Shown here piece by piece: positions 1 through 7,312 of a stretch of 7,312 nt of DNA. Below the pieces are notes generated by a model. That model made no database searches, was not told the DNA's origin, and worked only from the letters and a program-made list of their open reading frames with translations. Within the stretch, counting starts at the first letter, position 1. Each line of letters begins with the position of its first letter. The stretch spans positions 1 through 7,312 of the forward strand of contig JAFGJF010000230.1 in NCBI GenBank assembly GCA_016929205.1, read 5' to 3'. Source of the stretch: Anaerolineae bacterium (GTDB lineage: Bacteria; Chloroflexota; Anaerolineae; JAFGEY01). The position numbers and the translations under genes were made by a program.

Positions 1-2271
1 AAATGGGAAACTGATGTCGGGCAGTTACGTTTGATTGATGGTTCTCGTCAACAGGATCCAGCCAACTTGGCCGTTGTAGAGAGGCGAACTTTTTTCCCGT
101 TCAAACGTCGTGGCAAAGGACAGTTGTATGTCCTGCTAGAGTTGAGTGGGGGCTCGTTTGGCCGCGAAGATTTGTGTCACGAACTGGTCACTGCTATTAC
201 CGAGGAATATTTTCGTACTCCGGGAACGGTCACCTATGGTTTGCGTCAGGCCATACTGCTCGCCAACACGCAGTTGGTGCGCGAAAATGCCAAAGTAAAC
301 AGCGAACATCGCCTGGGTGGCGTGGCGTGTATTGTCTTGAGAGACGACGAGCTTTTTGTGGCTCAGGTGGGCTGGCCCATGGTCTACCTTGTTCATCGAG
401 AGCAAGTGCAGACCTTTCCCGATACGCTGCTGGAGAGCCAAGATATCAGCATGCTCGGCCAGCACCAGACGGCCAATGTCCGTATGTTTCATGCCGCCAT
501 TCATCCCCAAGATATGATCCTGATGGCTGATGGACCGATGGCTCGTCAATTGGGTATTACGCGTATTGGCCAGATTCTGGCAGGCAACGTCCAGCAAGCT
601 ATGCACAACCTGGAGGCCCTCGCTCCTCCGGAGGACTGTACAGCGGTGGTCATTCACCTCGGCGGCACAGCTACGCCTTTGGCGGCACAGGCTGAACGCT
701 GGGCGTTTGTGGATGTCGAACGTCCGGAACAACAGCCCGAAGAATCGCCCCAAGGTCCTCCAGCGGCTGTTCCACCTTCTTTTGAATATGATCACCAGCT
801 TGTTCCGAGTGCAAAGCAGGACAGCGGCCCAGGTGCGCCCAAAGAAGAGGCCGACGTGCCATCATCCTATGTGGATGAATTTGAACCTGATTCTTTTGAA
901 CAGCCAGTACCTGTCCAAAAAGCATCGTCTGGGTCCGACCTGGGTGAGCGTGTTGCGACTTTAGTCAAAGGCCTGGGACAGGGCGCTCGAACATTCGCGG
1001 AGCGGATGTTGCCCGAAAAAGACCCCGGCTCAGAGGCACGGCGCGCTCGGCGCCGGCGCAGTGCGGCCCGTACCCGGCGACGCGGCAAGCCTGACGAGCA
1101 ACCGACAAAATGGTGGCTTGCTGCTGCTGTTGCCGTTCCGTTATTGGCACTGCTTTTTGTTGTCCTTTACACCTGGTATCGTGGCTGGTCACAGCAATCT
1201 CAATTCAACGCCAAGCTGGAAGCCGCTCAAAGCAAGCGCGATATTGCGCTGAGCAGTAGCGAAAGCCCGGTTGTCGCACGAGATTATTGGCTAGAGGTCA
1301 TTTCACTGTCTGACGATGCGGCACAATTGCAACCTGACAGCCCCGAAATGTTGCAGTTGCGCGCTCAGGCTGAGACCGAGATCGACAGGATTGATGGCAT
1401 CACCCGGCTAGGGCAGTCATACAAGTTGTACGAGTACCCAAGTTCGCCCAGCAGGGTCATTGTGTCCGTTCTCGACGTATATGTGCTCGATCGCGGTATG
1501 GGGAATGTCTACCACCATGCACTCAACGATGTGCGAAATGGGCTACGGAACCCATCGGCTGAACAGGTGCTAATTCAACAGGGACAACCTGTTGAAGGGC
1601 AAAACGTAAATAATCTGATAGATATCGCCTGGATCAAAGATGGTGGTGAGCGGCAGGCGGGAGCGTTGTTGATTCTGGATGATGCTGGGCTTTTGCTAGA
1701 GTACGATCCAACCTGGGAAAAGTTTCAATCTCTGGCGGTCGGTGGTGTAAGTGAGTGGCGGAGTCCGTATGCATTAAGTACCTTTGACTCCAATCTGTAC
1801 CTGCTAGACCCATTGGCAAATCAGATCTTCAAGTATTGGAATCAACAATATGCGAGTGAGCCATCCCGTTGGATCGCGCAAGAAGGCGTCAGTATTGCCA
1901 CCGCGATCGATATCGGTATTGATGGGAATATTTACCTTTTGCATCAAGATGGTCGAATCACCAAGTATTTTGGCGGCGAAGTGGCTCCATTTGCTTTGAC
2001 CCGTATGCCTCTTCCATTATCCAGTGCTGACGCAATGTATATAGACGTTGATCAGGTGGCGCAGTACATTTATATTGCCGATAGCGCCGAGCAACGTGTC
2101 GTGCAGATAGATCGTGAAGGGGTGTTTGTCCGGCAGTTCAAACCTGCCCGAGAGCAAGAAGCTAGTTTCAGGCAGTTGATGGACATTTTTGTCGACGAGA
2201 TGGCGGGCAAGTTGTTCTATATTTCTGGAAATGCGCTCTATGTGACCGATATTCCACCTGTACAACGCTAG
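1..2271 (+). CDS. PP2C-like domain / single TM helix / beta-propeller membrane protein (5' end outside window)
   Basis: The reading frame is open from base 1 and no ribosome binding site precedes the first in-window start codon (TTG at 31), so the true start is probably upstream. Numbering here is from the codon at 31 (746 residues). Residues about 30-210 resemble a PP2C/SpoIIE-type phosphatase fold: a 'GGVACIVL...LFVAQVG' strand pair near 96-114, 'MILMADG' at 162-168 and 'EDCTAVVIHL' near 201-210. Residues 215-330 form a Pro/Glu/Ser-rich linker. An Arg-rich run (337-353) precedes a hydrophobic helix at 361-383, so the phosphatase-like part should be cytoplasmic and the C-terminus external. 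Residues about 470-746 contain repeated strands such as 'VYVLDRG', 'LYLLDPLANQIFKYW', 'IYLLHQDGRITKYF' and 'IYIADSAEQRVVQI', typical of NHL/SMP-30-like propeller blades. Several PP2C metal-binding Asp positions appear replaced, so catalysis is doubtful. The exact role is unknown; sensing or surface signalling is inference. It ends TAG, 50 bp before a terminator. Confidence 0.8.
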   Translation, partial: KWETDVGQLRLIDGSRQQDPANLAVVERRTFFPFKRRGKGQLYVLLELSGGSFGREDLCHELVTAITEEYFRTPGTVTYGLRQAILLANTQLVRENAKVNSEHRLGGVACIVLRDDELFVAQVGWPMVYLVHREQVQTFPDTLLESQDISMLGQHQTANVRMFHAAIHPQDMILMADGPMARQLGITRIGQILAGNVQQAMHNLEALAPPEDCTAVVIHLGGTATPLAAQAERWAFVDVERPEQQPEESPQGPPAAVPPSFEYDHQLVPSAKQDSGPGAPKEEADVPSSYVDEFEPDSFEQPVPVQKASSGSDLGERVATLVKGLGQGARTFAERMLPEKDPGSEARRARRRRSAARTRRRGKPDEQPTKWWLAAAVAVPLLALLFVVLYTWYRGWSQQSQFNAKLEAAQSKRDIALSSSESPVVARDYWLEVISLSDDAAQLQPDSPEMLQLRAQAETEIDRIDGITRLGQSYKLYEYPSSPSRVIVSVLDVYVLDRGMGNVYHHALNDVRNGLRNPSAEQVLIQQGQPVEGQNVNNLIDIAWIKDGGERQAGALLILDDAGLLLEYDPTWEKFQSLAVGGVSEWRSPYALSTFDSNLYLLDPLANQIFKYWNQQYASEPSRWIAQEGVSIATAIDIGIDGNIYLLHQDGRITKYFGGEVAPFALTRMPLPLSSADAMYIDVDQVAQYIYIADSAEQRVVQIDREGVFVRQFKPAREQEASFRQLMDIFVDEMAGKLFYISGNALYVTDIPPVQR

Positions 2272-5989: not shown

Positions 5990-7162
5990 ATGAACAAAAA
6001 GACAGTTCGAGACGTTGACGTCAAGGGTAAACGCGTGTTGGTGCGCGTCGATTTTAACGTCCCGCTTAAAGAAGGCGTTATTACCGATGATACGCGGATC
6101 CGTTCTGCATTGCCGACGATTCAATACCTGCTGGACAAGGGTGCGTCGCTGATTTTGATGTCCCATCTCGGGCGGCCAAAGGGTGAGGCCAAGCCTGAAT
6201 TCAGCCTCGAGCCGGTTGCGACGCGCCTGGGCGAGCTGTTGGGCCGAACGGTCAAGATGGCTCCCGACTGCATCGGCGAACAAGTAGAGGCCATGGCTGC
6301 CGCGCTCAAGCCGGGGGACGTGTTATTGCTGCAGAATACGCGTTACCACGCGGGTGAGACCAAGAATGACGCCGGAATGGCGGAAGCGTTGGCCGCATTG
6401 GGCGACCTGTTCGTCAACGATGCTTTTGGCGCTGCGCACCGCGCCCACGCGTCGACGGAAGGCGTGACGCACTACCTGCCGTCCGTTGCCGGGCTGTTGA
6501 TGGAAAAAGAGATCGAGTTTTTGGGCAAGGTGGTAGAAAACCCTGAATCGCCTTACGTCGCCATTATTGGCGGGGCCAAAATATCGGACAAGATCGGGGT
6601 CATTCGCCAATTGTTGAGCAAAGCGGATGCGCTGCTTATTGGCGGCGGTATGGCCAACACCTTTTTTGCCGCACAAGGTTACGAGATGGGCGATTCGCTT
6701 GTCGAGCCCGAGAGTTATGCGGTGGCCAAGGAACTGACGGCATTGGGTGGGAACAAGCTGATTTTGCCGGTGGATGGCGTGCTGGCCGATGCCTTTTCGG
6801 CGGAGGCGAATACCAAGATCGCCGGGGTGAACGAGATCGAACCCGGGTGGCGTATGTTGGACATTGGCCCCAAGTCGGTTGAATCGTTTGGAAAAAAGAT
6901 CGCAAAGGCCAAAACGATCGTCTGGAACGGGCCGATGGGCGTATTCGAGATGGCGCCGTTTGCCAAGGCGACGACGGCTATAGCCAAGATGCTGGCCGAA
7001 AGCGGGGCGATGACTGTGATTGGTGGGGGCGATTCGGTCGCTGCGATCCAACAGGCCGGCCTGGCAGACAAGATGTCGCACATTTCCACCGGTGGCGGCG
7101 CCTCGCTGGAAATGCTGGAAGGCAAGGTGCTTCCCGGCCTGGCGGCGCTGGACGACAAGTAG
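5990..7162 (+). CDS. pgk: Phosphoglycerate kinase
   Basis: PGK transfers the acyl phosphate of 1,3-bisphosphoglycerate to ADP, giving ATP and 3-phosphoglycerate in the cytoplasm. At 390 residues it has the normal bacterial length and a complete set of signatures. The substrate-binding N-domain has 'RVDFNVP' (19-25), 'SHLGRP' (58-63), Arg118 in 'QNTRYHAGE' and '[12 protein letters not shown]' (144-155). The nucleotide-binding C-domain has 'GGAKISDK' (194-201), 'GGGMANTF' (218-225), 'WNGPMGVFE' (312-320), 'GGGDSVAA' (345-352) and 'STGGGAS' (366-372). Relative to the common 'ENVRF' motif, 'QNTRY' is a mild variant. The start is set by GGGAG (5978-5982) seven bases before the ATG. It follows gap by 126 bp that contain a terminator-like hairpin, so it is either co-transcribed through that hairpin or uses a promoter I cannot identify. 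It ends in TAG, before a strong terminator. Confidence 0.97.
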
Positions 7163-7194
7163 CTTGAGTCCAAGTTTCTCAATCATCCATAGAG

Positions 7195-7239
7195 AAAGCG
7201 TCTTGACGAACCAAATGGTTTCGCCAAGACGCTTTTTTT
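7195..7239. terminator. Strong intrinsic terminator of pgk, probably bidirectional (also selC)
   Basis: AAAGCGTCTTG (7195-7205) and CAAGACGCTTT (7225-7235) form a perfect 11-bp stem. An inner stem (7207-7212 with 7217-7223, one bulged base) leaves a four-base loop. On the + strand it is followed by a T7 run (7233-7239), a strong terminator 32 bp after the pgk stop. On the - strand the same hairpin follows the tRNA-Sec 3' end directly and is followed by TTTCTCT, so it can also stop transcription arriving from the tRNA. Confidence 0.88.
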
Positions 7240-7312
7240 GGCGGGAGCGAATGAGAGTCGAACTCACCAAGGAACGTTCTACGCCCCTTCAGACGGTTTT
7301 GAAGACCGCGCG
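7239..7312 (-). tRNA. selC: tRNA-Sec (anticodon UCA), 5' part beyond the window edge
   Basis: Read on the minus strand, the segment holds the 3' part of a selenocysteine tRNA. The anticodon loop CTTCAAA (7304-7298) contains TCA at 7302-7300, which reads UGA, and is closed by a 5-bp stem (7309-7305 with 7297-7293, outermost pair G-U). The long variable arm pairs 7289-7281 with 7277-7269 (9 bp, two G-U), a class II trait strongly developed in tRNA-Sec. The T arm is GTGAG-TTCGACT-CTCAT (7267-7251); its TTCGACT loop also occurs in E. coli selC. The 3' acceptor strand TCGCTCCC (7250-7243) is 8 nt, giving the bacterial 8+5 acceptor/T-stem geometry. Discriminator G (7242) and an encoded CCA (7241-7239) follow. 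The D arm and 5' acceptor strand are outside the window, so base pairing of the acceptor stem cannot be verified. Confidence 0.88.

Follow-up and report, generated by a model that had tools for sequence, protein, structure and literature searches.

Does the right edge of this contig carry part of a selenocysteine tRNA (tRNA-Sec) gene and, if so, does the source organism recode UGA? The question was raised by a sequence-only reading of the window, i.e. the whole stretch of 7,312 nucleotides analysed here. This reading listed a UCA anticodon, a 9-bp variable arm, an 8-nt acceptor 3' strand and a TTCGACT T loop, and it concluded that selenocysteine (Sec) should be inserted at in-frame UGA codons elsewhere in the genome. 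In the following, the anatomy of the fragment is described before its genomic context, the competing explanations and the Sec-decoding genes of related genomes are considered.

A truncated selC gene at the contig edge

The minus strand of the last 74 bases (7312 to 7239, CGCGCGGTCTTCAAAACCGTCTGAAGGGGCGTAGAACGTTCCTTGGTGAGTTCGACTCTCATTCGCTCCCGCCA) corresponds to the 3' part of a bacterial tRNA-Sec gene (selC). The contig edge cuts inside the gene, and about 24 nt of its 5' end lie beyond position 7312. The criteria for a bacterial tRNA-Sec are a UCA anticodon in a 7-nt loop, a 13-bp acceptor and T helix, a long variable arm, G73, and a D stem of 6 bp closed by a loop of 4 nt. The features that can be read are collected in Table 1.

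Table 1 Features of the selC fragment and of the adjoining pgk region in the window
Feature	Position	Strand	Basis
selC, 3' 74 bases	7239..7312	-	RF01852, anatomy, alignment with complete selC genes (G008 and 22 further genomes)
Anticodon arm: stem GCGGT/ACCGT, one G-T pair	7293..7309	-	anatomy, positions derived from the reverse complement
Anticodon loop CTTCAAA, anticodon TCA	7298-7304	-	anatomy; 7-nt loop
Variable arm AAGGGGCGT / AGA / ACGTTCCTT	7269..7289	-	anatomy; same stem in predicted fold
T arm: stem GTGAG/CTCAT (one G-T pair), loop TTCGACT	7251..7267	-	anatomy
Acceptor stem 3' strand TCGCTCCC, 8 nt; partner past the contig edge	7243..7250	-	anatomy
Discriminator G73 at 7242, encoded CCA at 7241-7239	7239..7242	-	sequence and anatomy
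pgk (phosphoglycerate kinase), convergent with selC	5990..7162	+	Pfam PF00162, 544.7 bits
Hairpin with T run after pgk, probably a terminator, directly next to the 3' end of the tRNA	7190..7239	+	predicted folds

The anticodon loop is closed by CGGT/ACCG and one G-T pair, and the exceptionally long variable arm consists of a 9-bp stem, including two G-T pairs, with a 3-nt loop. The readable half of the acceptor and T helix (8+5) comprises the 5-bp T stem and the acceptor 3' strand, whose length of eight nucleotides is fixed by the encoded G73-CCA. All four features named in the sequence-only reading were thus recovered on the minus strand of 7239-7312. The accessible portion of the description of the canonical bacterial 8/5 tRNA-Sec (PMC5330540) shares with the window the UCA anticodon, the long variable arm, the 8-nt acceptor 3' strand joined to a 5-bp T stem, and G73; relative to that portion, the readable part of the gene shows no difference.

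Model, descriptor and folding results

An E-value search of the last 153 bases of the window retrieved the Rfam family RF01852 at 7243-7312 with 40.4 bits (E = 3.4e-7 for the 153-base stretch), covering positions 26-91 of the 91-position model with the 5' end cut off. When the window was searched at the Rfam gathering threshold, no match was obtained, and ARAGORN reported no tRNA in it. This silence is expected because the gene is cut: the gathering score of 47 is set for the whole model, and the partial match falls under it. Default tRNA and Rfam scans can therefore miss a tRNA-Sec that is cut by a contig end. The RF01852 score alone is insufficient for an assignment, since seven complete tRNA-Ser genes of related genomes reach 48.6-50.6 bits on the same model and five of 14 control genomes lie over its cut-off (for comparison, selA 1/14, selB 2/14 and selD 2/14); it is the anatomy that decides.

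The anatomy was therefore cast into a descriptor that combines a UCA loop on a 4-bp stem, a T arm and the spacing between them. It matched the window once. Applied to 182 loci totalling 2.01 Mb, in which one gene is often represented by two loci, it gave 38 matches, all of which fall at selC, and it missed six of the 44 tRNA-Sec genes that ARAGORN finds in those loci. A stricter version, which also requires G73 and a variable stem that is perfect over 6 bp or more, is passed by the window and by 10 of the 38 locus matches, the low number being due to the imperfect variable arms of most relatives in that parse. In 300 mononucleotide shuffles of the window, the descriptor never matched together with a variable stem of 6 bp or longer. 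The folding energy did not discriminate (z = -0.83), and no T arm formed in the minimum-energy structure; this z-score is uninformative because the tRNA lacks its acceptor partner.

Comparison with selC of related genomes

Related genomes were selected with two genes of the window. A PGK search of 396 genomes from the class to which G001 belongs matched 362 of them, with a best identity of 70%. A search of the same 396 genomes with the first ORF, located at the other end of the contig, gave five matches at E 1e-100, the best being G008 (58%), the sole genome of its order in the comparison set; in the order of G064 (four genomes) this ORF found no match. In the 30 genomes closest by PGK, RF01852 was over its cut-off in 20, in G182 only by way of a tRNA-Ser gene, and selC scored 66-78 bits in 19. 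These 19 genomes together with G003, G004 and G005 make up the 22 selC-bearing relatives referred to below; G008 is counted apart. Since the tRNA-Sec model was scored on 98 candidates per genome, out of several hundred from a first look, absences are soft.

The selC of G008 is complete and scores 69.7 bits. Over its first 24 readable bases, the window gene is identical to it, and G008 selC tops the alignment scores among the selC genes of 23 relatives (107, compared to at most 89 for the others). By plain identity, G170 ranks first (63/71 aligned positions), followed by G008 (62/74). The two genes share the anticodon loop, the start of the T loop, the 8-nt acceptor strand and G73, and in G008, too, an ORF converges on selC with an inverted repeat visible between them. 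They differ in the variable arm, which has another sequence and is 2 nt longer in G008, and in the neighbouring gene, a weak integrase-like ORF in G008 and pgk in the window. Moreover, G008 selC ends in CC followed by T, whereas the window encodes CCA; an encoded CCA is found in two of the 23 relatives' genes (G373 and G297). In summary, the tRNA-Sec identity proposed from the letters alone is upheld by the anatomy, the RF01852 alignment, the specificity of the descriptor and the homology to G008 selC.

A selC-like sequence of a different kind was noticed in G185 (L184 about 1500-1592, G185:C514). It has the CTTCAAA loop and a T arm two mismatches from the consensus, its anticodon stem appears broken by eye, and ARAGORN finds no tRNA there. 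This broken stem indicates that decayed selC copies exist in the group. G185 has selB over cut-off and no selA match, which may mean either that Sec decoding has decayed or that the assembly is incomplete.

Genes next to selC

The window holds five genes, assigned with Pfam: those of a 756-residue protein, an NAD-dependent epimerase, a group-1/family-4 glycosyltransferase, GAPDH and PGK. The advice to re-inspect neighbouring ORFs that end in TGA found no object here, as all five genes stop at TAG. The 756-residue protein (1-2271, plus strand, start open) is without a Pfam match and has, judged by eye, a hydrophobic and probably membrane-spanning stretch in its middle. It is matched exactly by a protein on a contig of 7312 bases, so that the window apparently makes up a complete contig. 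Among the 68 matches listed for it, itself included, four carry an organism name, three from Anaerolineae and one from a Chloroflexi MAG.

The gap between pgk and selC is filled by a hairpin that ends at the CCA; the folds of 7186-7240 and 7190-7245 are both predicted at about -27 kcal/mol. A stock terminator scan found none, probably because the inner hairpin is bulged.

Of 30 fetched PGK loci, 29 contain a gapdh match. In the 19 selC-bearing genomes closest by PGK, selC and pgk lie on separate contigs in 18, and 0.9 Mb apart on a single contig in G254. Since separate contigs of a fragmented assembly cannot exclude that two genes are neighbours, the five window proteins were compared directly with the selC loci. 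Neither pgk nor gapdh was found in the 23 relatives' loci (285,553 bases), where the window proteins gave only distant epimerase matches (27-32% identity, three loci). The surroundings of selC vary among the relatives as well: the largest family common to the flanking ORFs of 22 selC genes has four members, on the 3' side, and Peptidase_M50 matches four of the 41 ORFs nearest selC in a Pfam comparison listing 25 of 54 families.

In Escherichia coli, selC is a known island site. The sequence-only reading had pointed to selC as an integration site of mobile elements in some bacteria, a suggestion that gained little from the relatives. The ORF convergent with selC in G008 (L191:1-1443, G008:C38) matches Phage_integrase with E = 0.0068 and 16.6 bits, under the cut-off of 27.1, and is adjoined by PIN and Phd/YefM toxin-antitoxin genes. 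As the Pfam listing of 25 of 54 families cannot exclude integrases, an integrase motif scan was added for the 23 selC loci and the window. It retrieved the G008 ORF only, which is a weak control given that the motif had been relaxed after this ORF was seen; the relaxed motif also gave one spurious-looking match in the PGK locus L108. Allowing up to three mismatches, the selC 3' end was detected once in 22 of 23 genomes and not at all in G005, and a second copy in none.

Alternative explanations

Three other origins of the 74 bases were weighed against a genuine, truncated selC. That an ordinary type-II tRNA (Ser or Leu) has been misread as tRNA-Sec is suggested by the tRNA-Ser genes of relatives, seven of which outscore the 40.4 bits of the window on the tRNA-Sec model. 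Still, we regard it as barely credible, considering that the 7-nt loop presents UCA, which reads UGA, that eight and not seven nucleotides separate the T stem from G73-CCA, that the variable stem extends over 9 bp, and that the identity over 24 bases is to G008 selC, a match of 69.7 bits. Conversely, the fragment could descend from a true selC and be a remnant: either a pseudogene, or the tRNA 3' end duplicated as an att site when a mobile element integrated. The island site in E. coli, the integrase-like ORF of G008 with its PIN and Phd/YefM neighbours, and the degenerate sequence in G185 would be in line with such an origin. However, the readable copy is undamaged, including the anticodon arm and up to its last base, and this homology up to the end of the contig disfavours a pseudogene fragment or att remnant. 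In addition, no duplicated 3' end was detected in the 23 selC-bearing genomes at up to three mismatches, the window gene adjoins pgk instead of an integrase, and the motif scan, weak as a control, points to G008 alone. A remnant is thus considered very unlikely.

A chimeric assembly, in which a selC fragment was joined to an unrelated pgk end, would account for the absence of pgk and gapdh from the relatives' selC loci and for a contig that ends within a conserved tRNA gene. Against this, no selC neighbour is common to more than four of 22 relatives, so a new position is unremarkable, and the hairpin after pgk extends to the tRNA 3' end. Furthermore, the best-scoring selC comes from G008, which also ranks first when genomes are compared by the ORF at the contig's other end. 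The probability of a chimera therefore appears close to negligible. Finally, it is improbable that the 5' part has an unusual acceptor or D arm, or that a selC-targeting mobile element of a poorly sampled Chloroflexota lineage lies beyond the edge; an element of this kind is conceivable because the integrase-like, PIN and Phd genes beside selC in G008 would allow it. Having weighed these alternatives, we attribute the right edge with high confidence to a canonical bacterial tRNA-Sec gene of the 8/5 type, which is probably functional and of which the contig carries the 3' three quarters. Its source is an uncultured member of the Chloroflexota that probably belongs to the Anaerolineae.

Sec-decoding genes in relatives

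In the available part of a published survey (PMC1273633), selB together with selC is described as a signature of Sec decoding. Searching 33 genomes, SelA was over cut-off in 26 and SelB in 25. Within the 22 selC-bearing genomes the numbers were 21 for selA and 20 for selB, as compared to five of 11 for either gene where selC was not found. The co-occurrence of selC and selA is thus not strict in these assemblies, as five of the 11 keep selA; missing partner genes may reflect fragmentation. Four genomes (G064, G388, G081 and G182) have selA and selB over cut-off, and their selC was not found by the model or by a T-arm pattern. Incomplete assemblies, the scope of the search or a divergent tRNA-Sec could each explain this. 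When 13 genomes in which selC had not been found were searched with a selC pattern, a single match appeared, in G388; ARAGORN reports no tRNA there.

The selD gene was searched in the selC-bearing genomes. It is over cut-off in all 22, and every one of them possesses a selD copy interrupted by a single in-frame TGA. Twelve selD loci were fetched, and in 11 of them this TGA falls within an AGU-x-x-K motif, a site which we take to be that of Cys17 in E. coli SelD; the wide motif also matched other frames, and the selD rows were picked by eye. A GC-rich hairpin is predicted downstream of the TGA in all 11. As the predicted hairpin overlaps conserved codons, it serves as supporting evidence only. 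The twelfth locus is the TGA-free second copy of G373, which lies in a 772-residue open frame and accompanies one copy with a TGA. Two selD copies with one in-frame TGA each are present in G037, G137 and G004.

Implications for UGA recoding

Regarding the claim that a tRNA-Sec implies UGA recoding, the tRNA itself is established as described above, and the recoding is supported by way of the selC-bearing relatives. It is the expected reading for the organism, because a tRNA-Sec is present and because selA, selB and a TGA-containing selD accompany selC in relatives. We infer for the source organism the unread 5' part of the gene, its expression, the partner genes and a selenoprotein. The 5' part would supply a D stem of 6 bp and, on the plus strand, a TCGCTCCC-like strand (reading GGGAGCGA on the tRNA strand). 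Transcription of selC would proceed on the minus strand towards pgk, and the resulting tRNA would be charged with serine. SelA would then convert seryl-tRNA into selenocysteinyl-tRNA with selenophosphate provided by SelD, and SelB would deliver the product to UGA codons that have a SECIS hairpin downstream. Serine charging, conversion by SelA and SelD, and SelB-dependent delivery at UGA with a SECIS element are the established pathway.

Selenocysteine-containing formate dehydrogenases in Chloroflexi have already been published, according to the available part of the source (PMC5736913). The selC gene of the window is an ordinary further member of the known tRNA-Sec family, unsurprising in itself and useful for annotation. 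Judged from this gene fragment, the source organism very probably inserts selenocysteine at some of its UGA codons, and many of its relatives apparently do likewise. It is thus a probable selenoprotein maker, and genes that apparently end at TGA should be read with recoding in mind.
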